From Henckelia pumila (taxonomy: Eukaryota; Streptophyta; Magnoliopsida; Lamiales; Gesneriaceae), in contig NC_133122.1 of the NCBI RefSeq assembly GCF_033568475.1, positions 66,735,442-66,799,441 of the forward strand: a stretch of 64,000 nt of DNA, read 5' to 3'. This document shows, piece by piece, positions 1-58,850 of this stretch. Position 1 is the stretch's first letter, and each line of letters starts with the position of its first letter. A program made the translations under genes and the position numbers. Under the pieces are notes generated by a model. That model was not told the DNA's origin, did not search any database, and saw only the letters and a program-made list of their open reading frames with translations.

Positions 1-1036
1 ATAAATTTTAAATCATATTTAAAATGAGGGATTTTATTTATAAAAATATTTGTCTCATCATATTTAATTTATTGCATGCATTGCCGGATTCACGCAATTT
101 ATGTCTAAACATGCATACAATCATAATATCACATATTATATAGGATGATCGATTCCATTTCTAATTGACCCGTGGTTGCCAATCACGGGTCTTAGTCCAA
201 TCCTAGGTAATATGCAGTATGCAAATGCAATCCTATTACATATGCTTCCAATTTACATTTCTTCAATCTTCATTGTCTGCTGGGCCCACCATCTTCAAAT
301 CTTGATCTCCCACTAAATCTAATGTATTTACAATTAAATAACAATGACAAGTAGGGGATACATTTTTAGGGGTGGGAACGGGCTATAAACCAAGCCCACT
401 TTTATTACATATGACATTCATATCGGGCCATAAACCAGGCCCATTAATAAAACCAACAACAATAAAGACAAAATGTAAATTCCTAACATACACCTACAAA
501 ATTGGTCATGGCAATCGATCATCCTTATCCAATAACATTTAATTCAAAATTAATTTATTGGATAACATGCTGTGGCAATTCAAATTTAAACAAGATAAAA
601 TCATATTTTATATATAAAATCACATTTCACATATAAAATCATATTTTATCTTCATATCAAATAAAATCATATTTTATCTATAAAATCCAATTTTACAAAT
701 AAAATCATATTTTATCTAATATATCATAAGATCATATCTTATCATCAATTGTACCAAAATAATTGATTTCAAAATTCAATTTACGGATAAAATATTAAAA
801 TTTTCCAAAAATTCAAATTTATCCAAAATCAATTTTAAAATTTACGGACTTGAACAATTCGATCCGAAATCTCGTGAACCAATCAAAAACAATTTTTGAC
901 CGGACCAAAAATAAAATTTTAAATATTAAAATTAATAAAAATATTAAAAAATTAATTTTTCCCGCGGGCCACCCGGGACACTCCCGGGTTGGCCCGCACC
1001 CGGGGCGCGGGCCGGGGCAGCCCGGCTGCCCCCTTA

Positions 1037-1354
1037 GGGCAGCAACGTTTGCTGCCCTGGCGGCGCCTGGCGCCGCCGCTGGGCGGCGCCGTGCGTCGCC
1101 CTGGGCGGCGCCGAGCGCCGCCCCTGGGCGGCGCTGTGCGCCGCCCTGGGCAGCGCCGAGCGCTGCCCTGCGCAGCGCCCAGCGCTGCGCTGGGCAGCGC
1201 ACAGCGCTGCCCTGGGCAGCGCCGTGCGCCGCCCTGGGCGGCGACGGTCGCCGCCCTGGGCGGCGCCGTGCGCCCCCTTTGGGCGGCGCCGTGCGCCGCC
1301 CCTGGGGGCAGCGACCATCGCTGCCCCCTCCGGGCAGCGATCCAATCGCTGCCC
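1037..1354 (-). repeat. GC-rich array of about 14 short hairpins in a Copia leader
   Basis: About fourteen near-palindromic units of 21-23 bases, mostly spaced 22 bases apart, follow one another here. Units at 1081-1101, 1103-1123, 1126-1146, 1236-1256 have arms GGGCGGCG/CGCCGCCC (one mismatch in the first). Units at 1148-1168, 1192-1212, 1332-1354 have arms GGGCAGCG/CGCTGCCC. The unit at 1170-1190 has GCGCAGCG/CGCTGCGC. Arms change together, so base pairing is kept while the five or so loop bases vary. The region is mostly G and C inside an AT-rich leader. ORFs rich in Ala, Arg and Pro called across it in both strands are composition artefacts. Confidence 0.9.
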
Positions 1355-1486: not shown

Positions 1487-3347
1487 TGTTGGAAAACTGG
1501 CGAGTTCCCAGACCAATTACGATTGATACCCGGTGCAGCGGAAGTTTAAAAATTTTCTCATGGAACGATTCCATGGTGTGGGTATCAACCATACAACGAT
1601 TGAATTATTGTGTGTAAAATTTAAATAACAGTTAAATAAATTTTACCTCAAATCTCGCAACGAGATTAATGGACACCAACAGAACAATTCTGCTCTTGTT
1701 GTCTCTCCCTGGAACCGATGAACGCCTTCAATCAGGTCCACGAACAGAGGTTTAATCCCTCTGATAGATTGCACTAGAAAATCTATCAGAAGTTTTCTGC
1801 GAAGAGAATACACGAATTTGATTCGTTATTCCTTACTGCGATACAAAATCACAGACCGGAATTTTCTCGGGCAGAGTGAAGGGGCGGCCGAAATATGTTT
1901 GAGAGAGAGGGTAGGGTTTTCGAAAATTGCTCTCAAAATAATGACCTGTTGTGTGTAATTTCTGTACTGAAATAACTTATTTATAATGCAGGCCACTAAC
2001 ACCTTAGGGCCCATTAGTCATAAGCTGGGGCCCGACAAGCAAAGCCCGCTCGTTCAGAAATTAATATAAAATTCATCGTGACTCCGATTGATGAAACGAT
2101 TTCACCAATGTGCACAGAAACCATTTCTGCACGTTTTAAAGTCAAAATAAATTTTCCTGAATCCGAATTCAGTGGTTTCCAAAAATGTCCATCCCTATGT
2201 CATTTTAGGAAATCCTACTCCCTTACTCTTATTTAAGAAGTCCAACTCCTTAGTTCATTAAATTTAACTCTTTAAATTTAACTATCTCAACGGGGATTAA
2301 AACTCCATTACACTGTGTGACCCTCAATGGTTCAGGGATACAGCTAGCCGTGGGCTCACAACTCCTTGTGACTCGGAACAACACTTTCCGACTTGCCCAA
2401 CGAATCATGGTAAAGCGCCTAGCAACATCGCCCCATGATTCCCTAGGTATCACTGATAGTGCCTACAAGAACCAGTAGATTTTGGTTAACGTACAGTACG
2501 GTCCCTTCATCCAAATATCCCGATCGAATCAACAACCATTGGTATATCGAGAGTCGCTCAAGATTCGATAACTATGCAATACATCTTGAAGATCAAATTA
2601 GTGACATCGCATGTGCTACTAAGAAACCATTTCTTAAATCACATCAAGTACTCTGGCCAGAGATTTGTCACACTAATATCTCCTCAGATCGCATAGGATA
2701 TCCACACTCGCAAGTATGTGGTGAATCCTTGACAACAATGCATTGACTCCTATATGTGTCGTAACTGTACCCAATCTCGACACCTGATGACCCCCTCAGA
2801 GTCGGTAAACGAGTCAAAGCACAGTACTAGCATATAGAGTCTCCATGATGTTTCAAGTCGTAAGGACTAATGGTGTACAACCAAAACCGCGGACTTTATC
2901 CACTCGATAAGTGATAACCACTTGGAAAGTCCGGATAGGGTAGTTCGACTATTCATCCTATGAATATCCATTTGCATGCTTCGAACATCTCCATGTTCCC
3001 TACCAATGAAACGTGGTACTCCGCATCGCAAATGCTAGTCTCAAACTCGAGCGATCCTTATCCTTATTATCGGACGGCTCAATCGACTAGGAACGGTTTT
3101 AGAATATACAGTGACTATAAGATGTATTTCATGATAGACATCTCCATGTTCTACCACATCTTACATACACTATAGTATATTCAAGGTCTTTATCAAAACA
3201 ACAATAGTATATCACAATATAACAATATGAAGTAATATAAAGTCATTGCCATAAAAGTGTAAATAATATTAAACAAAAGATTGTTTATACAAAGAGTCAA
3301 CAAAGCCCATAGCCACACAGTTGGCTCACTGGGCACCCACTCTTACA
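1487..3347 (-). repeat. LTR of Copia family 1 (5' LTR, minus strand)
   Basis: On the minus strand the LTR starts TGTAAGAGTGGG and ends TTTTCCAACA, so it has the TG...CA ends expected of an LTR. At about 1861 bp it aligns throughout with the 1863 and 1865 bp LTRs at 47494-49356 and 55267-57131. It is visibly more diverged from them than they are from each other, so it is a separate and probably older insertion of the same family. ORFs of about 60-100 codons inside it recur in all three LTRs and are not taken as genes. Confidence 0.9.
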
Positions 3348-4474: not shown

Positions 4475-6622
4475 TGTCACTAATTTATCTTAATTGACTT
4501 TATTTGAGATAATCGGAGATTACATAGTTCAAGAACCGACTTGATTTTGATCAGGGTCTATTTTGCAAATTTTGGAATTTTCAGTGACTAAAATGCAATT
4601 TTGGACTTTGTTAGATATTTAAGCATGTTTGACTTGGTCTTCTTCATTCTTCATCACCTTCCTCATGCCTCCTCCCTCTCCAAACCGCCATGGAAGTCCC
4701 TTTGAGCTTCCAGATTTCTTCCCGAGCTCGATCCGTCCGTTAGAATTTATTTCTGAAGGCAGATTAGCGATCACTGCAGCGAGAGCTCCGTTATACCGTA
4801 AGTATTTCTCCGATCAGATACGTTTTGTTTTTCGGATGTTTTTAGATTCGATTGAGTTTCGAGTATGTTGTTCTTGGCAGAGTTCAGATCGTTTATTCTC
4901 AGATGGTTTTGAATTTGAGAGTCGTTCGGATTTGTTAGAAATTTTGGAAGTTTATTCTAAAAATTGAGTTTTGAGATTTGTTGGGTTTGAACCTTTATTG
5001 TGGTTTTAGCATTGATATGATTTGTTTGAGATGATGTACTGCTGTCTGTACTTTCGGTTTGATCAGTTATAGTCGTTATGCTGCCAGTTTGAGTTTTGGA
5101 ATATCAATCGTTTATATTGATGAGATTTTGGATTTAGGAGTTGGAATTGAGTTTGAATGGTTTGAATTGGATGGATTGACTTTGGAATTCTTTTATATCT
5201 CCTTTCAGATTCAGTTGCAGATCTTGGAGTCCGGAATTGACAGAATTCGAATCGTTGAAGAATTGATCAAGGTTTGGTATCGAGGTTACTCTATTTCCTT
5301 GACTTGTATTGAGTAGTGTTTTGATTGAGCCTTTTGTGCTTGTAGCTTGTCCGATTGCAGCTACGTCAATCAAAGAAGAGATAAAAGATGACTTTGGAAT
5401 GGAATAGGATGATTAACTCGAATCCGGATTGATTCGAGTGTCCTAGGGAAAATCACATACTTGCATGCTACTTGAAGTTTATGTTGTTTGTTGTTTGATT
5501 TACACTTTCATTCATATTGAGTCAATTACCTTTGTTTTGAGGGCAAGAGAGGCCCAGAGAAGTTAGATGTTCTGTGGACTATAGTTGAGTGACATTGGTT
5601 AGCAGATTTTTTTACCAATTGTCGAGAAATACTCTCTATAGGCGCCCAGAGTCTAGAGGAGTAAAATATTCATCGTCCACCTCGATCGGGAGAGTCGTTG
5701 TGTTGGTGATATTTTGTCCTCGGGATCCCAAATGAGATAAGAAGAACCTTTACCTTGTGATTATCCAGACTTTATAATCCTTGTTTTAAAGACATGCATT
5801 GTATTTTATGCATTTTGATTTGGAGTTATTGACTTGCTATTGGAATTGCTTGTTTGGTTGTTTCATATATCGCGTTCGATATATATTATTTGATATGCAT
5901 GTTTTGTCTCTTTTACTGGGATTTGTATTCTCACCAGATTTATCCGGCTGTTGTCTGGTTTTGTATGTGTACTTGGCAACAGGTAGGGCAGGTTTGAGTC
6001 AGAAGCTGCATGATTAGATCGAGTTGGAATGGATATAAGTGAGACTCGATTTATAAATCGAATTCAGCATTTCAATCTAGTTTATGTTTTGTAGCGAGTT
6101 TAGAACGCTAGTATGGACTGTTGGTTGTTGTTGCATGTGATTCGAACTTGTTATGTTTTGTATTCAAACTCGTTTGTATTTCGGAGTTGTATAACTTGGA
6201 ACGAAGCATGTTTAGGACTTTTATCGATCTAAACTTTATGTTGATCTTAGGTATATTATGAAAGCATGCTTAGTATTGATATTGTTATTGCGTGTATTCT
6301 CTACACCTCGTTTTATTTATGGGTTTGAATGCATGTCGGAAGCGAACACGGAAGATTTTGTTGGCCTTGAATTCATTTATGCCCAGGTCTTCCGCGCGCG
6401 AGCGAGATTGCACCTCGCGCGCACGAAAGTATTTCCCAGGCCTCGGGTTATTTAGCCCGCGCGCGCGCGAGGGAGGTATCTTGCGCGGGAGCGAGCATGC
6501 AGCGAGGTTTCTGGAATTAGAGCTCGCGCGATGGTTATCTCGCACGGGCGCGAGACGTTAAAAAAATTATGGCTTTTAATTGTTTAAATACGGGATTAGT
6601 TGTTTAGAACCGAGGTCTCACA
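4475..6622 (+). repeat. 5' LTR of the Gypsy element
   Basis: It starts TGTCACTAATTTATC and ends GAGGTCTCACA. The 3' copy starts TGTAACGCCCCAAATTT, so the first bases of this copy have suffered a small deletion. Near its end (6385-6560) lies a CG-rich module of alternating CGCG runs that differs in length from the 3' LTR copy. A related solo LTR lies at 41392-43376. Confidence 0.9.
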
Positions 6623-6627
6623 TTAAG

Positions 6628-9493: not shown

Positions 9494-11632
9494 TGTAACG
9501 CCCCAAATTTATCTTAATTGACTTTATTTGAGATAATCAGAGATTACAGAGTTCAAGAACCGACTTGATTTTGATCAGGGTCTATTTTGAAAATTTCAGA
9601 ATTTTCAGGAACTAAAACGCAATTTTGGACTTTGTTAGATATTTAAGCATGTTTGACTTGGTATTCTTCATTCTTCATCACCTTCCTCATGCCTCCTCCA
9701 TCTCCAGACCACCATGGACGTCCCTTTGAGCTTCCAGATTTCTTCTCGAGCTCGATCCGTCCGTTAGAATTTATTTCTGAAGACAGATTAGCGATCACTG
9801 CAGCGAGAGCTCTGTTATACCGTAAGTATTTCTCCGATCAGATACATTTTGTTTTTCGGATGTTGTTAGATTCGATTGAGTTTTGAGTATGTTGTTTTTG
9901 GCAGAGTTCTGATCGTTTATTCTCAGACGGTTTTGAATTTGAGCGTCGTTCGGAATTGTTAGGAATTTTGGAAGTTTATTCTAAAAATTGAGTTTTGATA
10001 TTTGTTGGGTTTGAACCTTTATTGTGGTTTTAGCATTGATATAAGTTGTTTGAGATGCTGTACTGCTGTCTGTACATCCGGTTTGATCAGTTATAGTCGT
10101 TATGCTGCCAGTTTGAGTTTTGGAATATCAATCGTTTATATTGATGAGATTTTGGATTTAAGAGTTGAAATTGAGTTTGAATGGTTTGAATTGGATGGAT
10201 TGACTTTGGAATTCTTTTATATCTCCTTTCAGATTCAGTTGCAGATCGTGGAGTCCGGAATTGACAGAATTCGAATCGTTGAAGAATTGATCAAGGTTTG
10301 GTATCGAGGTTACTCTATTTTCTTGACTTGTATCGAGTGATGTTTTGATTGAGCCTTTTGTGCTTGTAGCTTGTCCGGATTGCAGCTACGTCAATCAAAG
10401 AAGAGGTAAAAGATGACTTTGGAATAGAATAGGACGATTAACTCGAATCCGTATTGATTCGAGTGTCCTAGGGAAAATCACATACTTGCATGCTACTTGA
10501 AGTTTATGTTGTTTGTTGTTTGATTTTCACTTGCATTCATATTGAGCCAATTACCTTTGTTTTGCGGGCAAGAGAGGCCCAAAGAAGTTAGATGTTCTGT
10601 GGACTATAGTTGAGTGACATTGGTTAGCAGAATTTTTTACCAATTGTCGAGAAACACTCTCTATAGGCGCCCATAGTCTAGAGGAGTAAAATATGCATCG
10701 TCCACCTCGATCAGGAGAGTCGGTGTGTTGGTGATATTTTGTCCTCGGGATCCCAAATGAGATAAGAAGAACCTTTACCTTGTGATTATTCAGACTTGAT
10801 AATCCTGGTTTTAAAGACATGCATTGTATTTTATGCATTTTGATTTGGAGTTATTGACTTGCTATTGGAATTGCTTGTTTGGTTGTTTCATATATCGTGT
10901 TAGATATATATTATTTGATATGCATGTTTTGTCTCTTTTACTGGGATTTGTATTCTCACCGGATTTATCCGGCTGTTGTCTGGTTTTGTATGTGTACTTG
11001 GCAACAGGTGGGGCAGGTTCGAGTCAGAAGCTGCATGATTAGATCGAATTGGAAGGGATAGAAGTGAGACTCGGTTTAGAAGTCGAATTCAACATTTCAA
11101 TCTAGTTTATGTTTTGTAGCGAGTTTAGAATGCTAGTTTGGACTGTTGGTTGTTGTTTCATGTGATTCGAACTTGTTATGTTTTGTATTCGAACTCGTTT
11201 GTATTTTGGAGTTGTAAAACTTGGAACGAAGCATGTTTAGGACTTTTATCGATCTAGACTTTATGTTGATCTTAGGTATATTATGAAAGCATGCTTAGTA
11301 TTGATATTGTTATTGCGTGTATTCTCTACACCTCGTTTTATTTATGGGTTTGAATGCATGTCGGAAGCGAGCATGGAAGATTTTGTTGGCCTTGAATTCG
11401 TTTCTGACCAGGTCTTTCGCGCGCGAGCGAGATTGTACCTCACTCGCGTGCGGAAGTATTTCCCAAGCCTCGGGTTATTTAGCCCGCGCGCGCGAGCATG
11501 CAGCGAGGTTGCTGGAATTAGAGCTTGCGCGCGCGAGATGGTTATATCGCGCACGCGCGAGGCGTTTAAAAAAAAATTTATGGCTTTTAATTGTTTAATC
11601 CGGAATTAGTTGTTTAGAACCGAGGTCTCACA
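9494..11632 (+). repeat. 3' LTR of the Gypsy element
   Basis: It starts TGTAACGCCCC and ends GAGGTCTCACA, and aligns along its whole length with 4475-6622. ORFs of 60-110 codons that appear in both LTRs at matching positions are LTR sequence, not genes. The CG-rich module (about 11418-11565) is shorter than in the 5' LTR. Confidence 0.9.
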
Positions 11633-11637
11633 ATTAC

Positions 11638-41369: not shown

Positions 41370-41480
41370 CCTCAAGATGGTGATCTCATAGTGTGAGACC
41401 TCGATTCTAATCATCAAATCTCGGGATAAACAATAATAAAGCATACACGATTAAAAGCAAAGAAATTTTTTTAAAAGGGC

Positions 41481-41667
41481 TGCGCTCGATCACATGAACT
41501 CGTGCGATCGAGCGCACCATCCATGCCTCAAACTCTGCCGGAAAAACTCAGGTGCTGCGCTCGATCCCATGAACTCATGGGATCGAGCGCACCAATTCTG
41601 CAAAGTTCTCTGCCTCAACAAAACTGAGGGCCGCGCTCGATCCGACGAACACATGCAATCGAGCGCG
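41481..41667 (-). repeat. Three 36-nt hairpins at 75-nt spacing in the solo LTR
   Basis: Units at 41481-41516, 41556-41591 and 41632-41667 each have 17-base arms separated by AC. The middle unit is a perfect palindrome (TGCGCTCGATCCCATGA and its complement); the others have two to several mismatches, with outer arms GCGCTCGAT/ATCGAGCGC kept. Confidence 0.9.
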
Positions 41668-47493: not shown

Positions 47494-49356
47494 TGAAAGA
47501 GTGGGTGCCCAGTGAGCCAACTTGTGGCTATGGGCTTTGATGACTCTTTGTACAAACGATCTTTTGTTTAATGTAATTTACACTTTTATTAATGGCAATG
47601 ACTTTATCTTTCTTCATATTGTTATATTATGATATACTATTGTTGTTTTGATAAAGACCTTGAATATACTATAGTGTATGTAAGATGTGGTAGAACATGG
47701 GGATGTCTATCATGAAATACATCTTATAGTCACTGTATATTCTAAACTGTTCCTAGTCGATTGAGCCGTCCGATAATAAGGATAAGGATCGCTCGAGTTT
47801 GAGACTAGCATTTGCGATGCGGAGTACCACGTTTCATTGGTAGGGAACATGGAGATGTTCGAAGCATGCAAATGGATATTCATAGGATGAATAATCGAAC
47901 TACCCTATCCGGACTTTCCAAGTGGTTATCACTTATCGAGTGGATAAAGTCCGCGGTTTTGGTTGTACACCATTAGTCCTTACTACTTGAAACATCATGG
48001 AGACTCTATATGCTAGTACTGTGCTTTGACTCGTTTACTGACTCTATGGGGGTCATCAGGTGTCGGGATTGGGTACAGTTACAACACATATAGGAGTCGA
48101 TGCATTGTTGTCAAGGATTCACCACATACTTGCGAGTGTGGATATCCTATGCGATCTGAGGAGATATTAGTGTGACGAATCTCTGGCCAGAGTACTTGAT
48201 GTGATTTAAGAAATGGTTTCTTAGTAGCACATGCGATGTCACTAATTTGATCTTCAAGATGTATTGCATAGTTATCGAATCTTGAGTGACTCTCGATATA
48301 CCAATGGTTGTTGATTCGATCGGGATATATGGATGAAGGGACCGTACTGTACGCTAACCAAAATCTACTGGTTCTTGTAGGCACTATCAGTGATACCTAG
48401 GGAATCATGAGGCGATGTTGCTAGGCGCTTTACCATGATTCGTTGGGCAAGTCGGAAATCGTTGTTCCGAGTCACAAGAGTTGTGAGCCCACGCTAGCTG
48501 TATCCCTGAACCATTGAGGGTCACACAGTGTAATGGAGTTTTAATCCCCGTTGAGATAGTTAAATTTAAAGAGTTAAATTTAATGAATAAAGAAGTTGGA
48601 CTTCTTAAATAAGAGTAAGGGAGTAGGATTTCCTAAAATGACATAAGGATGTACATTTTTGGAAACCACTGAATTCGGATTCAGGAAAATTTATCTTGAC
48701 TTTAAAATGTGCAGAAATGGTTTCTGTGCACATTGGTAAAATCGGTTTATCAATCGGAGTCACGATGAATTTTATATTAATTTCTGAACATGCGGGCTTT
48801 GCTTGTCGTGCCTCAACTTATGACTAATGGGCCCTAAGGTGTTAGTGGCCTGCATTATAAATAAGTTATTGCAGTACAGAAATTACACACAACAGGTCAT
48901 AATTTTGAGAGAAAAATTTCAAAACCCTAGCCTCTCTCTCAAATATTTCGGCCGAACACCCTCCCTCTCTCTGTCTGAGAAATTCCGGTCTGTGATTTTG
49001 AATTGCAGTCTGGAATAGCGAATCAAATTCGTTTATTCTCTTCGCAGAAAACTTCTGATAGATTTTCTAGTGCAATCTATCAGAGGGATTAAACCTCCAT
49101 TCGTGGACCTGATTGAAGGAAAGCTTGTTCATCAGTTCCAGGGAGATACAAGAAGCGCAGAGAAATCTGTGTGGTGTCCAATAATCTCGCTTCGAGATTG
49201 AAGGTAAAATTTAATAATAGTTATTTAATTTTACACACACAAATAATTTAATCGTATGGTTGATACCCACACTATGGAATTGTTCCATACTAAAATTTTA
49301 AACTTCCGCTGCACCGGGTATCAATCGTGATTGATCTGAACGCCAGTTTTCCAACA
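47494..49356 (+). repeat. 5' LTR of the Copia element
   Basis: TGAAAGAGTGGG to TTTTCCAACA, 1863 bp. It is the same family as 1487-3347. Confidence 0.95.
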
Positions 49357-49357
49357 G

Positions 49358-49375
49358 TGGTATCAGAGCCAGGTT
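49358..49375 (+). other. Primer-binding site of the Copia element
   Basis: TGGTATCAGAGCCAGGTT, complementary to plant initiator Met tRNA, starts one base after the LTR. Confidence 0.9.
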
Positions 49376-49492
49376 GCTCAGATCAAACGATTAAATTAAT
49401 CGATTGTACAAAAATTTTTGAGTCTTGTTTTTTTTTTTAAAACAAAATAAATATTTTAAATAAAATTTTTTTTTTTTTTTCGGGCAAAACCC

Positions 49493-49770
49493 GGGCAGCG
49501 ATTGGATCGCTGCCCGGTGGGGCAGCGACGGTCGCTGCCCCGGGCGGCGCACGGCGCCGCCCAAAGGGGGCGCACAGCGCCGCCGCCCAGGGGCGGCGCT
49601 CAGCGCCGCCAGGGCAGCGCCGAGCGCAGCGCAGCGCAGAGCGCTGCGCAGGGCTGCGCACGGCGCCGCCCAGGGGCGACGCTCGGCGCCGCCCAGGGCA
49701 GCGCACGGGCGGCGCCTGGCGCAGCCAGGGCAGCGATTGTCGCTGCCCTAAAGGGGCAGCCGGGCTGCCC
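49493..49770 (+). repeat. GC-rich hairpin array in the Copia leader
   Basis: This counterpart of 1037-1354 lies in the transcribed orientation about 120 bases after the primer site. Clear units: 49493-49515 (GGGCAGCG/CGCTGCCC), the next one GGGGCAGCG/CGCTGCCCC, then GGGCGGCG/CGCCGCCC, ending with 49728-49748 and 49752-49770. Order and number of units differ from the other copy, although first and last units correspond. It would form a chain of stem-loops in genomic RNA. Confidence 0.9.
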
Positions 49771-51341
49771 CGGCCCGCGCCCACGGGTGCGGGCCAACCC
49801 GGGAGTGTCCCGGGCGGCCCGCGGGAAAAATTATTTTTTTTATTTAAATTAATTTTAATGTGTTAAAATTTTATTTTTGGTCCGGTCAAAAATTGTTTTT
49901 GATTGGTTCACGAGGCATCGGATCGAATTGTTCGAGTCCGAAAATTTTAAAATTGATTTTTGGATAAATTTGAATTTTTGGAAAATTTTAATATTTTATC
50001 CTTAAATTGAATTTTGAAATCAATTATTTTTGGTACAATTGATGATAAGATTTGATCTTATGTATATATTAAGTAAAATATGATTTTATCTATAAAATTA
50101 GATTCTGTAGATAAAATATGATTTTATTTAATAAAGGTAAAATATGATTTTATATGTAAAATATGATTTTATATATAAAATATGATTTTATCCTGTTTAA
50201 ATTTAAATTGCCATATGCATGATATCCAATAAATTAATTTTGAATTAAATGTTATTGATAAGGATGATCGATTGCCATGACCAATTTTGTAGGTGTATGT
50301 TAGGAATTTACATTTGTTTTATTGTTGTTGGTTTTATTAATGGGCCTGGTTTATGGCCCAATATGAATGTCATATGTAATAAAAGTGGGCTTGGTTTATG
50401 GCCCGTTCCCACCCCTAAAATGTATCCCCTACTTGTCATTGCTATTTATTGTAAATACATTAGATTTAGTGGGAGATCAAGATTTGAAGATGGTGGGCCC
50501 AGCAGACAATAAAGACGAAGAAATGTAAATTGGAAGCTAATGTAATAGGATTGCATTGCATACTGCATATTACCTAGGATTGGACTAAGACTCGTGATTG
50601 GAAACCACGAGTCAATTAGAAATGGAATCGATCATCCTATATATAATATATGATATTATGATTGTATGCATGTTTTAGACATAATTGTATGAATCCGGCA
50701 AGCATACAATAAATTGAAAAATGATGAGACAAATTTTCATAATTAAAAATCCCTCATTTTAAATATGATTTAAAATTGATATCAAGATAAATAAAGGAAA
50801 TTTGAATTTGTTTAAATGTTCCTACCTTCCATCAACGGTCAATGTATGTGATGCTACCCGCGGATACGGTCCGGCTCATATTATTGGGGGGCCCGTCCGT
50901 CGGAAAGCTGTACATTGGATCGACACATGTTGTAAGTTGGGTGGAACTCCCATGGGATCGGCTCATATTATTGGGGGATCCACATGGCGACCGTCCATCA
51001 CAACTTAATATTGATGGGTCATCTTGACATGTCACTATAAAACGCGTCATATTATTGGGCCTTATTAGACATGAGGTAAATACATGGGGGTTGCTTTGGA
51101 AGCAATTGGGCTCTACCTTTTGAGAATTATGGTTGGCTGATATTATTCGGGACCATAAGTTTGTCAATTGGACTCCATGTTCTCACTAAGGAAAAAGTTT
51201 CCCGCTTTCACTAGAGGGTAGTGAAATCGTTAAAATAGTGGGAGTGAGATTCATAAAATTAAATTCGCCTATTTTATGTCTTAGTAAATTGCTTAAACAA
51301 TCATTGATATATGTCTGTTTTTCTTTTCAGTATTTCATACA
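49771..51341 (+). other. Rest of the Copia leader (untranslated)
   Basis: AT-rich text with repeats of 'atgattttatctataaaat' type, then a short direct repeat CGGCTCATATTATTGGGGG (near 50874 and 50961). No coding seen. The long leader precedes gag. Confidence 0.7.
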
Positions 51342-52160
51342 ATGAATTCGCGTAATCCATTATTCTCGATCTTCGAACAAAACAAGTTGACTGGCGCAAA
51401 CTATACGGAATGGTTCCGAAAGTTGAAGATTGTCTTGACTTCGGAGAAGATGCTCTACGTGTTAGAGAAATCACCTCCGAAGAAAGCACCAGCTGACGTA
51501 AGTCCGGAGGAATTGGCCAAACTTGATGCATGGTGGGACCATGACATCAAGACCAAATGCTATATGCAAGCCTCGATGTCTGATGAACTCCAGAGGCGAT
51601 TTGAGGACACCGTGAATGCTGCTGACATTCACGCTCAACTCAAGGAACTTTTTGGGGCTCAATCGAGGGCTGAAAGGTTCGCTACTATTAAGGAGCTGAT
51701 GACGTGTCGCATGCGTGAAGGGACTTCGGTCCGTGATCATGGGGTACGAGTGATTTGGCTCATACAAAAGTTAGCGACCCTTGATTTGGTGTTGGAGCAT
51801 GAACTCAACGTGGATTTACTGCTTCTGTCTCTTCCTTCTTCGTTTGACGGATTGTGGTAAATTTTAATATGAACAAGATAGAGGCCACCCTTGAAGAGAT
51901 GGTCAATATGCTTGTGACATATGAATCCACACTTAAGAAGGATAAGCCAGCTTTCTTGGTGGGCTCCTCATCTTCTGCTAAGAAGGGGCCAAGTATGAAG
52001 GGCAAGAAACGTTCTGCCCCACCCAAGAAAGTCGAGCCCGAGAAGAAGCACAAGACAAAGGCTTCAAACAATGGAAAATCCAAGGATGTTTGCCATTACT
52101 GCAAGAAGCCCGGTCATTGGAAGCGCAACTGCAAGGAATATCTAGAGCAGTTGGGAACTG
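51342..52160 (+). pseudogene. Copia gag, one frameshift
   Basis: From the ATG at 51342 (MNSRNPLFSIFEQNKLTG): Copia gag with NYTEWFRKLKIVL, LDAWWDHDIKTKCYM, LKELFGAQSRAERF and LLLSLPSSFDG. A one-base deletion near 51855 ends the first frame; coding resumes in the next frame (NFNMNKIEATLEEMVNML) and reaches the zinc knuckle CHYCKKPGHWKRNC at about 52093-52134. It would build the particle and bind RNA. Confidence 0.9.
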
Positions 52161-55100
52161 CAAAGGGTATGTTCTATATTGAAATAAACATTTCACTTAA
52201 TACTACTTCTTGGGTATTGGATACCGGATGTGGATCTCACATTTGCAATGATTTGCAGATGATGACAAGAAGTCGCAGGCTTAGAATGGGTGAGACCCAG
52301 CTGAGGCTCGGGAATGGTTCCAGAGTAGAAGCTACAGCCATTGGAGATGTTTGTTTAATTTTGCAGAACGGTTTTAAGTTATTTTTAAGAGATGTTTTAT
52401 TTGTTCCGGATTTAATTAAAAACATTATTTCTGTTTCTATGCTAGATAGAGATGGTTATTCTTGCAATTTTGTGAATGGGATTTGCAATATTTACAAGAA
52501 TGAATGTTTGATTGAAAATAGACAACTTGAAAACGATCTATACAACTTAAAACTAAAAGACGTTCCAATAAATTATGTTGATAAACCGGCGACAACAAAC
52601 AAAAGGAAAATCGATAGTCAAAACCCGGCAAACCTTTGGCACGCTAGACTAGGTCATATTTCCTCAAGGAGGATGAACAAGCTAGTGGGAGAGGGCATGT
52701 TTGATATGTCTGATATTAACTCTCTACCTACTTGTGAATCCTGCCTAAAAGGGAAAATGACTAAATCTCCTTTTAAGGGGAAACCTGAGCGTAGTCAAAA
52801 TCTGTTGGATTTGATCCATACAGATGTTTGTGGTTCATTTAGAGTTGGGACTCAACATGGCCACACCTACTTCATTACCTTTACTGATGATTATTCAAGG
52901 TATGGGTATTTATATTTAATGAAATATAAGTATGAAGCATTTGAAAAGTTCAAAGAATTCAAGGCTGAAGTAGAAAATAAGCTAGGTAAAAGTATTAAAG
53001 CACTTCGATCGGATCGAGGTGGAGAATACTTAAGTACCGATTTTTTGGACTATCTAAAAGAGAATGTGATTCTCTCTCAGTGGACTCCTCCTATGACACC
53101 ACAGCTTAATGGTGTATCGGAGCGTCGTAATCGAACTTTGTTGGACATGGTTCGATCCATGATGAGCTTCACTGAGCTTCCACCTTCGTTTTGGGGCTAT
53201 GCGCTTGAAACGGCGGTATTGTTGTTGAACAACGTCCACACTAAAGCAGTGGACAAAACACCATACGAGTTATGGAATGACAAAGCTCCTAAGTATTCGT
53301 ACTTAAGGATTTGGGGATGTCCTGCTTACGTGAAGCAAACAGTGGGAGATAAGTTGGATAGTCGATCCAGCTTATGTTATTTTGTAGGATATCCGAAGAA
53401 TTCAATCGGATATTATTTCTATTATCCTGCTGAAACAAAGGTGTTTGTTTCTAGGAATGCCACCTTCTTGGAGAAGGAGTTCTTATTGGATAAGAAAGGC
53501 GAGATGATGGAACTCGAAGAAGTTCGAGAAGAACCCGAAATACAAAATAACGATCCTACGCCTCAGGAACCATTACTGGACACGCCTGAACCTAGAAGAT
53601 CCGAGAGGACTTCTAGACCTCCTGTTCGATATGGTCTTCTTCTTGAAGGGGATCATGATGAACCCGACATTGGATGTGATCCAAGAAACTTCAAGGAAGC
53701 AATTTCTGATGCGGATTCAAATTTATGGCTTGAAGCTATGCAGTCTGAATTGGATTCAATGCATACAAACCAAGTTTGGTCTTTAGTAGATCCTCCTGAT
53801 GGAATTGTTCCAATAGGTGTAAATGGATCTACAGAGAAAGCTTGGGCCTGATGGTAAGGTATTGACCTACAAGGCGCGATTGGTGGCGAAAGGTTACACT
53901 CAAAGACAAGGAGTTGACTATGATGAAACCTTTTCACCAGTTGCAATGTTCAAGTCCATAAGAATCCTTATTGCCATAGCTGCATGGTATGACTATGAGA
54001 TATGGCAAATGGATGTGAAGACTGCTTTTCTTAATGGAGACATTAAGGAAGAAATCTATATGAAGCAGCCAGAGGGGTTCACATCCATGGGAAGCGAGCA
54101 TAAGGTATGCAAGCTTCAGAGATCAATTTATGGTCTAAAACAAGCATCAAGAAGTTGGAACCAGAAATTTGATGAAACAATAAAAGATTTTGGTTTCATC
54201 AAGAACCCGGAGGAACCGTGCGTGTACAAGAAAGTAGTTAAGGATGCTGTGACATTCTTAGTACTTTATGTTGATGACATCCTACTCATTGGGAATGATG
54301 TAGGATGTTGCAGTCAACAAAGATATGGTTATCAGGTAGATTCTCGATGAAGGATTTGGGTGAGGCATCCTACATTCTTGGGATACAGATCTATAGAGAT
54401 AGATCTAAGAGAATGATAGGACTCACTCAATCAACCTACATCGACACCATATTGAAACGGTTTTCAATGGATGGGTCCAAGAGAGGACATCTACCCATGT
54501 GTCATGGAGTTTCTTTATCCAAGTCTATGTGTCCCAAGACTGATGCAGAGATAGAGAATATGACACATGTACCATATGCGTCAGCTATAGGTAGTATCAT
54601 GTATGGGATGATATCTACCAGACCGGATGTAGCATTTGCTCTGAGTGTCACGAGCAGATATCAGGCTAATCCTGGTCAAATGCATTGGAAAGCCGTGAAG
54701 GACATTCTTAAGTACTTACGAAGGACTAAGAATATGTTCATGGTATATGGAGGACGAGATCTGAAATTGGAAGGCTATACCGACTCTAGCTTCCAAAGTG
54801 ACGTGGATGACTCGAAGTCAACCTCTGGATTTGTGTTCATGCTCAATGGCGGTGCTGTCTCTTGGAAGAGTTCCAAGCAGGACACCACAGCGGATTCCAC
54901 CACTGAGGCTGAATACATTGCAGCATCAGCTGCTGCTAAAGAGGCCGTTTGGATGAGGAAGTTCGTCCAAGAGTTGGGCGTCATTCCTGAATTTGTTGGT
55001 CCAGTCCCGGTGTACTGTGACAACACGGGTGCCGTTGCTCAAGCAAAGGAACCAAGGTCTCATCAAAGATCCAAACACGTACTGAGGAAATACCACATCA

Positions 55101-55252
55101 TCCGGGAGATTGTGGAAAGAGGAGACATCACTGTCGAACGAGTGGCCTCTGCAGACAATATCGCTGATCCGCTTACTAAGCCCTTGCCAGGACCATTGTT
55201 TGACAAACATCGCGAAGCAATGGGTCTATGTAGTATGACTAGTTGGCTATAG
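52161..55252 (+). pseudogene. Copia pol: protease, integrase, RT, RNase H with frameshifts
   Basis: Protease active site WVLDTGCGSHIC (about 52212); integrase zinc part LWHARLGHISSRR and CESCLKGKMTKSPF; core LIHTDVCGSF, RSDRGGEYLS, LNGVSERRNRTL; RT from about 53740 with VAKGYTQRQGVDY, SIYGLKQASRSWN and LVLYVDDILLIGND; RNase H with TDSSFQSDVDDSKSTSG, STTEAEYIAASAA, DNTGAVAQAKEPRSHQRSKH and NIADPLTKPL, stop at 55252. Frame changes near 53815-53850 and near 54300-54310 break it. It is closest in text to the TNT1/Tork-type Copia pol (recognition, not a search). Confidence 0.92.
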
Positions 55253-55266
55253 GGCAAGTGGAAGAT
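55253..55266 (+). other. Polypurine tract of the Copia element
   Basis: GGGCAAGTGGAAGAT lies between the pol stop and the 3' LTR; it is not perfectly purine, as often in this group. Confidence 0.65.
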
Positions 55267-57131
55267 TGAAAGAGTGGGTGCCCAGTGAGCCAACTTGTGG
55301 CTATGGGCTTTGCTGACTCTTTGTACAAACGATCTTTTGTTTAATGTAATTTACACTTTTATTAATGGCAATGACTTTATCTTTCTTCATATTGTTATAT
55401 TATGATATACTATTGTTGTTTTGATAAAGACCTTGAATATACTATAGTGTATGTAAGATGTGGTAGAACATGGGGATGTCTATCATGAAATACATCTTAT
55501 AGTCACTGTATATTCTAAACTGTTCCTAGTCGATTGAGCCGTCCGATAATAAGGATAAGGATCGCTCGAGTTTGAGACTAGCATTTGCGATGCGGAGTAC
55601 CACGTTTCATTGGTAGGGAACATGGAGATGTTCGAAGCATGCAAATGGATATTCATAGGATGAATAATCGAACTACCCTATCCGGACTTTCCAAGTGGTT
55701 ATCACTTATCGAGTGGATAAAGTCCGCGGTTTTGGTTGTACACCATTAGTCCTTACTACTTGAAACATCATGGAGACTCTATATGCTAGTACTGTGCTTT
55801 GACTCGTTTACCGACTCTATGGGGGTCATCAGGTGTCGGGATTGGGTACAGTTACAACACATATAGGAGTCGATGCATTGTTGTCAAGGATTCACCACAT
55901 ACTTGCGAGTGTGGATATCCTATGCGATCTGAGGAGATATTAGTGTGACGAATCTCTGGCCAGAGTACTTGATGTGATTTAAGAAATGGTTTCTTAGTAG
56001 CACATGCGATGTCACTAATTTGATCTTCAAGATGTATTGCATAGTTATCGAATCTTGAGCGACTCTCGATATACCAATGGTTGTTGATTCGATCGGGATA
56101 TATGGATGAAGGGACCGTACTGTACGCTAACCAAAATCTACTGGTTCTTGTAGGCACTATCAGTGATACCTAGGGAATCATGGGGCGATGTTGCTAGGCG
56201 CTTTACCATGATTCGTTGGGCAAGTCGGAAATCGTTGTTCCGAGTCACAAGGAGTTGTGAGCCCACGGCTAGCTGTATCCCTGAACCATTGAGGGTCACA
56301 CAGTGTAATGGAGTTTTAATCCCCGTTGAGATAGTTAAATTTAAAGAGTTAAATTTAATGAATAAAGAAGTTGGACTTCTTAAATAAGAGTAAGGGAGTA
56401 GGATTTCCTAAAATGATATAGGGATGTACATTTTTGGAAACCACTGAATTCGGATTCAGGAAAATTTATCTTGACTTTAAAATGTGCAGAAATGGTTTCT
56501 GTGCACATTGGTAAAATCGGTTTATCAATCGGAGTCACGATGAATTTTATATTAATTTCTGAACATGCGGGCTTTGCTTGTCGGGCCTCAACTTATGACT
56601 AATGGGCCCTAAGGTGTTAGTGGCCTGCATTATAAATAAGTTATTGCAGTACAGAAATTACACACAACAGGTCATAATTTTGAGAGAAAAATTTCGAAAC
56701 CCTAGCCTCTCTCTCAAATATTTCGGCTGAACACCCTCCCTCTCTCTGTCTGAGAAATTCCGGTCTGTGATTTTGAATTGCAGTCTGGAATAGCGAATCA
56801 AATTCGTTTATTCTCTTCGCAGAAAACTTCTGATAGATTTTCTAGTGCAATCTATCAGAGGGATTAAACCTCCATTCGTGGACCTGATTGAAGGAAAGCT
56901 TGTTCATCAGTTCCAGGGAGATACAAGAAGCGCAGAGAAATCTGTGTGGTGTCCAATAATCTCGCTTCGAGATTGAAGGTAAAATTTAATAATAGTTATT
57001 TAATTTTACACACACAAATAATTTAATCGTATGGTTGATACCCACACTATGGAATTGTTCCATACTAAAATTTTAAACTTCCGCTGCACCGGGTATCAAT
57101 CGTGATTGATCTGAACGCCAGTTTTCCAACA
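55267..57131 (+). repeat. 3' LTR of the Copia element
   Basis: 1865 bp, TGAAAGAGTGGG to TTTTCCAACA, nearly identical to 47494-49356. Confidence 0.95.
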
Positions 57132-57136
57132 CCAGG

Positions 57137-58168
57137 ATGAATAGATAATCGACTCTTGTGAGCTTGAGAAAGAATATTGTTTCTGTGCTCTGAAATATCA
57201 GGTACAACCACCCGATTCGATAAGCACAATAAACCATCTGCCTGATAATGGAATCCAGATGTATTAACTCCATTGGCTAGACGTGCCAAACGCTGAGTCT
57301 TAACATCAGATATCTGAGCATATCTGATCCGAGAATACAATGCTGGCTCAGATAGAATAGTATACAATCGAATCCCATTTCTTCCTTTCCTGTGCTTGAG
57401 CGTAAAACTCAATGAACAGCACTCTTGAATCATATGAGATACTTCACTAGTCTGTAGTGCAGAAAGTCTCACCTGCCGACTCAAGGCATCAGTAGTAAGA
57501 TTAGCAGAACCTGGATGATATTTGATTTCACAATCATAATCCTTCAAGAGATCCATCCAGCGTCTCTGTCGCATATTCAACTCCGTCTGAGTGAATAAAT
57601 ATTTCAGACTCTTGTGGTCCGTGAATATCTCAAATTTCTCGCCATAAAGATAATGCCTCCAGATCTTGAGCGCAAATACAATGGCGGCTAACTCGAGATC
57701 ATGTACTGGATAATTATTCTCATGTGTCTTCAACTGTCGAGAAGCATAGGCAATAACATGTCCATGCTGTGTAAGAACACATCCTAACCCCTGACCAGAG
57801 GCATCAGTATAGACAACATAACCTCCTGATCCAGAAGGTAGAGCTAGCACAGGTGCAATAGTAAGACGTCTACGCAGCTCGTGAAATGACTCCTCACAAT
57901 CCGAGGACCATATGAAGGAAATATCTTTCCGAGTAAGCTGTGTCAAAGGCCTGGCCAACTGTGAAAAATTCTCGATGAACCAACGGTAATAACCAGCTAG
58001 ACCCAAGAAACTATGAATCTCAGCAACCGTCATCGTACGAGACTAGTTCAGCACTGCCTCTATCTTACTAGGATCAACAGATATCCCTTCACTAGAAATC
58101 ACATGACCGAGAAACACTACCCGATCAAGCCAGAATTCACACTTGCTCAATTTTGCATACAACTGCTT
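57137..58168 (-). pseudogene. Chromovirus RT C-terminus, RNase H and start of integrase
   Basis: Minus strand from 58168: [14 protein letters not shown] and [24 protein letters not shown] (RT end), an in-frame TAG near 58045 in place of a probable Trp, then [18 protein letters not shown], RNase H with [31 protein letters not shown] and [11 protein letters not shown] (D, E, D), DALSR, and [10 protein letters not shown] at the start of integrase. It continues at 47488 across the Copia insertion. It is cut at 58162-58168, where it meets the opposite-strand RT segment. Confidence 0.9.
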
Positions 58169-58459: not shown

Positions 58460-58613
58460 TGTAGTAACCCGTATCCAGAATTAACGATTTATGAGTAATT
58501 AATAATACGATCATGTTTAGATGTAATAAAACATGATTAAGGGAGTCCCAGATGGATTAACAGAGTTCGGAAATGGATTCAGAACGCTCGAAAATGGTTC
58601 GAGGGTCGTCGAG

Positions 58614-58835
58614 TTCGGAGGCTCCGAAGTCAGGGTTCGAAAGGTCCGAAGTCAGGGTTCGGACGACCGAAGAGTGGTTCGGACGCTCCGAACGTGCTGC
58701 CGACAGTCGTCATGGATGATGTCATTGTGCTGACGTAAGCAATGACGTATTATTGGGTTCGGACGACCCGAAGTCGAGATCGGACGGTCCGATCGTGTTC
58801 GGACGCTCCGAAGTCCAGTTCGGACGATCCGAACT
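58614..58835 (+). promoter_or_regulatory. Ladder of TTCGGAC-type palindromes in the solo LTR promoter
   Basis: About eight palindromes of the form TTCGGACGnTCCGAA (for example TTCGGAGGCTCCGAA at 58614-58628 and TTCGGACGATCCGAA ending near 58833) stand upstream of the TATA box. They could be paired binding sites of a dimeric transcription factor, or hairpins. Confidence 0.7.
58731..58750 (+). promoter_or_regulatory. as-1-like element
   Basis: TGACGTAAGC followed by AATGACGTAT gives two TGACG boxes with the 12-base centre spacing of as-1/ocs elements, known targets of TGA bZIP factors in stress and salicylic acid responses. It lies about 90 bases before the TATA box. Confidence 0.6.
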
Positions 58836-58840
58836 CCGTC

Positions 58841-58850
58841 TATAAATAGG
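58841..58850 (+). promoter_or_regulatory. TATA box of the solo LTR
   Basis: TATAAATAGG, a good plant TATA box, marks the U3 promoter. Confidence 0.75.

Follow-up and report, generated by a model that had tools for sequence, protein, structure and literature searches.

A remodelled GC-rich hairpin array in the leader, predicted to be an intron, of a Copia retrotransposon family in Henckelia pumila

Results

Two copies, A and B, of one LTR retrotransposon lie in the window, the whole 64,000-nt stretch of Henckelia pumila DNA that was analysed. Copy A is complete and its two LTRs are 99.4% identical, whereas copy B stands on the minus strand with a leader that extends past the window start. The primer binding site of copy A, which we take to be of the initiator-Met type, abuts the end of the 5' LTR. 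Beyond the gag start, gag-pol of copy A is split across several frames, and a domain search of each frame separately gave the order Retrotran_gag_2, integrase core and then RVT_2. By their LTRs, primer site, target-site duplication, gag type and the position of integrase before reverse transcriptase, the copies are Copia (Ty1) LTR retrotransposons, and they belong to a Copia family that is young and abundant. The features are as follows.

47494-57131, plus strand: copy A, complete Copia insertion with the target-site duplication CCAGG on both sides
47494-49356 and 55267-57131, plus strand: 5' LTR and 3' LTR of copy A
48885-49203, plus strand: predicted first exon, free of ATG, running from about 30 nt past the TATA box (TATAAATA, 48856) to the donor
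49204-51330, plus strand: predicted leader intron of copy A, with donor AG/GTAAAA at 49204 and acceptor TTTTTCTTTTCAG ending at 51330
49357-49373, plus strand: primer binding site of copy A, GTGGTATCAGAGCCAGG
49490-49749, plus strand: tandem hairpin array of copy A with about 11-12 units, each 19-23 nt long; some are fused or have a single broken pair
49753-49826, plus strand: trailing GC-rich hairpins of different sequence in copy A (GGGGCAGC-CGG-GCTGCCCC, GGCCCGCG..CGGGCC and CCCGGGA-GTG-TCCCGGG)
50074-50191, plus strand: second palindromic tandem array of the same leader, AT-rich (TAAAATATGATTTTATATA), with its copy B counterpart at 595-742
51342-51860, plus strand: gag start of copy A (Retrotran_gag_2)
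973-1354, minus strand: hairpin array of copy B, with around 14 units in tandem and the trailing stems in addition
1487-3347, minus strand: 5' LTR of copy B (93.9% identity with the 3' LTR of A)

The unit numbers of the two GC-rich arrays are our own parse. In copy A, Tandem Repeats Finder reported a 23-nt period at 49520-49716 (8.9 copies); in copy B the period was 22 nt at 1054-1306 (11.4 copies) and cleaner. The regular form is that of copy B; gaps against it fuse several units in copy A, which is partly degraded, with a pair broken in A only in three of the ten units compared. A degenerate unit pattern allowing at most two mismatches matched 29 times over both strands of the window, a count in which one palindrome may score once per strand; all matches fell within arrays A and B, none in the LTRs of the window copies, and 100 shuffled sequences gave none. 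GC content of the arrays was 0.80-0.82, with a CpG observed/expected ratio of 0.93-1.0. An Rfam search of 47494-57131 at gathering thresholds gave no match. A sequence-only reading of this locus had described a hairpin array in the leader of a Copia element, and both parts of that description hold, since tandem near-palindromes of about 22 nt occur in A and B far above chance.

Folding against shuffled controls, which the same reading had put forward as a check, agreed with it. The RNA of 49480-49830 in copy A folded at -293.5 kcal/mol (z -14.9) and that of the copy B array at -360.7 kcal/mol (z -15.5), and none of 100 shuffles was as good in either case. The lowest-energy fold of both arrays was a long rod in which unit pairs with unit instead of separate hairpins. 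When pairing was confined to a span of 30 nt, the hairpins-only folds reached -249.5 (A) and -320.6 (B) kcal/mol, 40-44 less stable than the rod; local hairpins would presumably arise first during RNA synthesis. The unit types of copy B seem to be ordered mirror-symmetrically, as in one giant palindrome, but 50 of 300 random orders folded at least as well and this idea was dropped.

Within units, pairing was measured on 17 units of A and B taken as 21-mers from the window, the others being omitted. Pairing held in 97.4% of cells, compared with 87.4% in shuffles, and fell to 33-58% when the partner was shifted by 1-3 columns; in four of nine pairs both sides had changed.

The array was then followed across the genome in two samples. 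A query with the leader returned, as the best 40 of 3970 candidates, the window copy and 39 others that matched the whole query. A query with gag returned 18438 loose candidates, of which the best 150, all except the window copy at 98% identity, included many with open frames near 1319 aa. From these 150 we hand-picked 60 before any of their own leaders had been seen. The gag-picked sample is therefore blind to the array, whereas the 39 leader-query copies are a biased sample because their query carried it.

Both array flanks were present in 57 of the 60 gag-picked copies. The other three lacked the upstream flank; in L058 and L080 the match to the leader starts only 3' of the array, and L060 retains at least part of it. 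Four of the 57 were interrupted, two by foreign DNA between the LTR end and an array remnant (L087, which keeps little beyond the trailing stems, and L103) and two by a deletion that spans the primer site and ends inside the array (L066 and L073). Results showed that every continuous leader of this sample (53/53) carries the array, at 147-389 nt (median 277) and 3-13 units including trailing stems. Absence from relatives, which the earlier reading had named as evidence against itself, was thus looked for among sampled family members with a continuous leader and not found. The leader-query copies had 10-13 units each. Altogether, 98 arrays held 937 units, trailing stems counted, with a median of 10 per array and a range of 2-17; Markov controls held 0.48 per array. 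The first trailing stem was found in 92 and the third in 97 of the 98 copies. The AT-rich TAAAATATGATTTTATATA array was far stabler than the GC-rich one, with four or five exact units in 37 of the 39 copies checked. Further repeats of the leader were noticed by eye at 50340-50410 and 50860-51130, where GGGCYTGGTTTATGGCCC occurs twice along with several CATATTATTGGG motifs.

Array length showed no difference with gag-pol open-frame length in 57 copies (medians 269 vs 277, p 0.76). For comparison, ten other Copia elements of the same genome with long gag open frames were chosen from 150 scored rows of a Copia gag search, and none of their ten upstream regions (901 nt each) held the array. Seven had a Met-type primer site and leaders of 93-244 nt up to the gag match, and the remaining three appeared by eye to have a different primer-site-like sequence near gag. 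Peak GC over 60 nt in these regions was 0.47-0.60, with 0-2 loose AT-rich hairpins. Searches of viral contigs (by protein and by tandem-unit pattern) and of prokaryote genomes (by pattern) found no relatives, as expected for plant DNA.

On sequence features, the leader of about 2 kb is predicted to be an intron, with a conserved donor and acceptor and with upstream ATGs confined to it. The predicted intron of copy A (about 2.1 kb) ends 11 nt ahead of the gag ATG and contains 51 ATGs along with the primer site and the array. The stretch from 48830 to 49255, by contrast, has none; for the 319-nt exon, five ATGs were expected under an order-1 Markov model (P(0)=0.004), or ten at the density of U3. 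The donor was kept in every copy (98/98). Of 97 exons, 95 were free of ATG and two had a single one. The exact acceptor pattern was present in 54 of the 77 copies fetched through to gag, and the predicted intron of these 54 contains 46-56 ATGs in each. Among the 23 non-matches, 20 were inspected; about half have the same site with a base changed near the ATG, and about half form a second lineage with an acceptor-like CATCTCAG. A sub-lineage comprising L012, L018, L020, L022 and others combines the same leader and array with a different gag start and acceptor-like sequence, and is perhaps non-autonomous.

A copy of the spliced junction was sought in the genome and gave no matches, which says little because spliced RNA would be without the primer site. 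Ribosome shunting past a structured leader was also considered as a route to gag; 49 of the 51 upstream ATGs stand 3' of the array, so splicing is the simpler account. If the leader is an intron, as it appears to be, the array would be carried only by unspliced genomic RNA.

The units were then compared for pairing and for sequence. Among the 937 units, 675 were perfect across the eight inner pairs, in a count that leaves out worse-paired units because the unit finder requires at least seven of eight pairs. Perfect palindromes made up 15 of the 22 unit types common to at least five copies and 21 of the 124 single-copy types (p 2.8e-6); types found in 2-4 copies were as imperfect as the single-copy ones (8/43 perfect), and 7 of the 22 widely shared types were imperfect. 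These counts indicate that units found in many copies, which are presumably old, are for the most part palindromes, while private changes mostly break pairing.

Loops proved freer than arms. Ten different loops were found on the commonest stem, and in the ten units that align unambiguously between A and B (the central units being left out) differences were found at 5 of 174 sites in arms and at 6 of 30 in loops (Fisher p 0.0017). The claim that stems survive while loops drift is borne out by these observations. Loops also evolved faster than the LTR (6/30, p 0.006). Arms were not significantly slower than the LTR (5/174 vs 102/1847, p 0.16), nor were arm CpGs significantly slower than LTR CpGs (4/27 vs 20/70, p 0.20).

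Paired change was seen at pair 8 of two anchored units, 2 and 14. Both units had G-C in 49 copies and A-T in 22; the state was mixed in one copy and A.C at unit 2 in two, and 24 of the 98 copies were unscorable, lacking unit 2 or 14 or holding another unit there. The G-C and A-T states split by subfamily. The differences are CpG transitions and may represent few events, perhaps one with conversion between units 2 and 14, which are perhaps not independent. Over five anchored units, all four arm variants common to at least five copies form two complementary pairs, with 54 arm variants in one or two copies and five in three or four. The ratio of shared to rare variants, 4:54 in arms and 3:7 in loops (p 0.06), is only suggestive. 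The earlier claim that the two arms change together, whose failure that reading had also named as evidence against itself, stands for orthologous units 2 and 14, where the events may be few.

Wobble pairs gave a different signal. G.U was not favoured over A.C among half-changed pairs, the ratio being 24:29 for single-copy types and 15:14 for shared types. A count by cells with a rougher finder had yielded even fewer G.U (73:131), a figure inflated by shared types. The case for selection at the RNA level is weakened by this result, since a selected sense stem should tolerate G.U better. Of the proposal that the array is kept because it folds, the observation that pairing is mostly kept stands, and selection on an RNA fold is unsupported, as G.U is about as frequent as A.C and arms are not significantly slower than the LTR.

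No two of the 98 arrays were alike. Judged by the downstream flank alone (600 nt, 37 gag-picked copies), the array was shared by none of 26 pairs less than 0.5% diverged. Distances in the last piece of U5 and the first downstream piece correlated at Spearman 0.21, compared with 0.5 between two downstream pieces; because the histories of U5 and the downstream side are thus partly separate, the test was redone with both sides in 87 copies. Five pairs with at most four edits per 810 flanking nt had a median array difference of 17%, none being identical, and three of these pairs come from one tandem trio. At most eight edits in 810 flanking nt gave 14 pairs, with a median array difference of 23% and again none identical. 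Array distance showed almost no relation to flank distance (Spearman no higher than 0.11).

Two special cases bear on the cause of this variation. Outside the 98, an inverted pair 665 kb apart has the same 5' host flank, with no substitutions and one internal 1-nt gap over 689 nt; because host flank and insertion site coincide, we regard it as a segmental duplication. Its array pieces are identical across 899 aligned nt, so assembly error is unlikely to be the general cause of variation. The array was thus stable at the DNA level in this pair, a single and very young control that is perhaps younger than the other pairs. The tandem trio L093, L059 and L094 (C2:111474000-111493000) has a spacing of about 7.7 kb, the same orientation and one common array deletion, and its arrays differ by 13-20 substitutions and 4-47 gap columns, with unit expansion visible in L059. 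The three may be sister cDNAs or may have changed at the DNA level. Reversed loops were rare, CGT occurring 3 times and ACG 80 times in the commonest stem.

Discussion

We tentatively interpret the array as a palindrome minisatellite that is remodelled by template jumps of reverse transcriptase and kept as a paired element of the genomic RNA. Splicing would remove the leader together with the primer site and join the ATG-free exon to the gag start, and only RNA left unspliced, which is able to undergo reverse transcription, would retain the array. Reverse transcriptase would stall and jump among the near-identical hairpins, rearranging the array about once per transposition, and the feature kept would be pairing rather than sequence. 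A hairpin cluster near the primer site would most likely serve as a multivalent dimerisation or packaging element or as some other mark of unspliced RNA. The leader of retroviruses likewise holds a splice donor with packaging and dimerisation stems, a structured region present only in unspliced RNA, although there the donor lies 3' of the primer site and no tandem array occurs. DNA-level change may also contribute, because the tandem trio that shares one deletion differs in its arrays. A fuller version of the proposal, which we think unlikely, is that the array is a hairpin cassette private to the genomic RNA, spliced from the translated RNA, which works as a multivalent dimerisation or packaging platform and whose interchangeable palindromes lead reverse transcriptase to re-deal it at nearly every transposition, giving each insertion its own fingerprint.

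The closest rival, which is possible but which we would not bet on, needs no function at all; in it, jumps of a polymerase or reverse transcriptase between arms and units would duplicate, delete and re-perfect the hairpins, and the palindromes would make and mend themselves. The parity of G.U and A.C favours such a process, which is blind to RNA, and the near independence of array and flank distances, the deletions of L066 and L073 that end within the array and the unit expansion of L059 are in keeping with it. The array nevertheless survived constant rearrangement in all 53 continuous leaders, and strand-switch copying predicts the reversed loops that proved rare. Persistence in these leaders and the paired change between subfamilies favour a constraint on pairing, and with both sets of observations weighed the functional reading comes out slightly ahead of the self-mending one.

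The remaining explanations also assign the array a role or an effect. It could be a DNA-level control region of the Sirevirus kind, in which a CpG island influences the LTR promoter through palindromes that bind proteins; its GC and CpG content would suit this, and a Sorghum Sirevirus motif has an almost identical arm (AGGGCGGCAGTGCCGCCCT, in the accessible part of PMC2829016). We consider this improbable, as the predicted start stands about 600 nt 5' of the array, neither window copy has a unit in its LTRs, and the arms vary (GGCGGCGC, GGCAGCGC, GGCAGCAA, CGCAGCGC) with pairing intact, unlike a sequence-specific site. Still less probable is a splicing or export switch, in which structure within the leader intron would slow splicing and set the balance of genomic and gag RNA; the array does lie inside the predicted intron, but its length ranges from 147 to 389 nt across continuous leaders. 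Least probable is a target or decoy of silencing, with a rod-like fold feeding small-RNA production as is reported for the LTR palindromes of maize Sireviruses. The unit-to-unit rod is the lowest-energy fold, and small RNAs are attracted by maize Copia palindromes (PMC10760457, as far as its text was available); a harmful feature of this kind, however, would poorly explain the persistence of the array.

Among known systems, the palindromic repeated motifs (RMs) of Sireviruses are nearest. According to the accessible part of PMC2829016, they occur within the LTR, on the 5' side of the TATA box, and also before env, and Copia elements other than Sireviruses reportedly have none. As described there, they resemble the present array in being short repeated palindromes of non-coding plant Copia DNA, most with a CGG-CCG core, in CpG-island clusters, and the arm of the Sorghum motif is almost that of this array. 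The CGG-CCG core occurs in our GGCGGCGC units and is missing from GGCAGCGC and GGCAGCAA units. Compared with the RMs so far as that text describes them, the array differs in standing in the leader past the primer site, with none in the LTR, and in having arm sequences that are unconserved and an arrangement that is different in each compared copy. The junction of 5' LTR and primer binding site reads CA/ATTGG followed by TATCAGAGC, with a 9-nt primer binding site, in Sireviruses (same source, in part), but CA/GTGG followed by TATCAGAGC and CAGG here. In Sireviruses, a linker bearing multiple polypurine tracts precedes the 3' LTR. Copy A has no space for one, because its last pol open frame ends at 55252 and the 3' LTR begins at 55267. 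Since its location and junction features differ, we do not class the array as a Sirevirus motif.

Two further comparisons concern other plant Copia elements, again from the accessible parts of the sources. The small-RNA-enriched CACCGGACNNNGTCCGGTG palindromes of maize Copia elements are likewise palindrome-rich, strongly folding and non-coding, but they form an LTR cis-region with another motif, whereas the present array is in a leader and predicted intron (PMC10760457). BARE is a plant Copia element with translated, partly spliced RNA separate from packaged RNA, as proposed here; its intron, however, measures 104 nt and lies at the end of gag, while ours is a predicted leader intron of about 2.1 kb that would remove the primer site (PMC3735527).

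In the partly accessible literature on Copia hairpin and palindrome arrays, splicing and leader introns, with subscription journals thinly covered, we found no leader array of this type described. The statement of the sequence-only reading that no such array is known for Copia elements must be narrowed, given that similar Sirevirus arrays are published (PMC2829016, seen in part); it may still apply to leaders, those arrays being located in LTRs and before env. Palindrome repeats in Copia non-coding DNA are therefore already on record (PMC2829016 and PMC10760457, in their accessible parts), and what appears undescribed is the leader location, the predicted intron, the paired change of arms and the remodelling in each copy.

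How a single transcript is shared out between translation and replication in plant LTR retrotransposons is an active question (PMC3735527, as far as accessible). The predicted intron that removes the primer site, combined with a structured block private to the genomic RNA, makes the questions of packaging and of the transcript split testable. For plant LTR retrotransposons in general, little is known about the signals that direct packaging and dimerisation. Because the array changes so fast, it could also fingerprint single insertions and gauge template jumping by plant reverse transcriptases in nature.

Other repeats of the window

Several further elements were noted in the window. A minus-strand open frame at 57065-58033, adjoining copy A, resembles by eye a Ty3/Gypsy reverse transcriptase-RNase H. 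At 58605-58833, a palindromic tandem array (TTCGGACGNTCCGAA, with ATCGGACGGTCCGAT) stands just 5' of a TATA-like box at 58842; it looks like an array in the LTR of another element, similar to the published Sirevirus-type motifs. Two to three tandem 75-nt repeats at 41476-41666 each contain a 10-bp inverted repeat, GCGCTCGATC..GATCGAGCGC. A 2.1-kb direct repeat at 4482-6625 and 9506-11636, with 93.7% identity, is probably another LTR pair.
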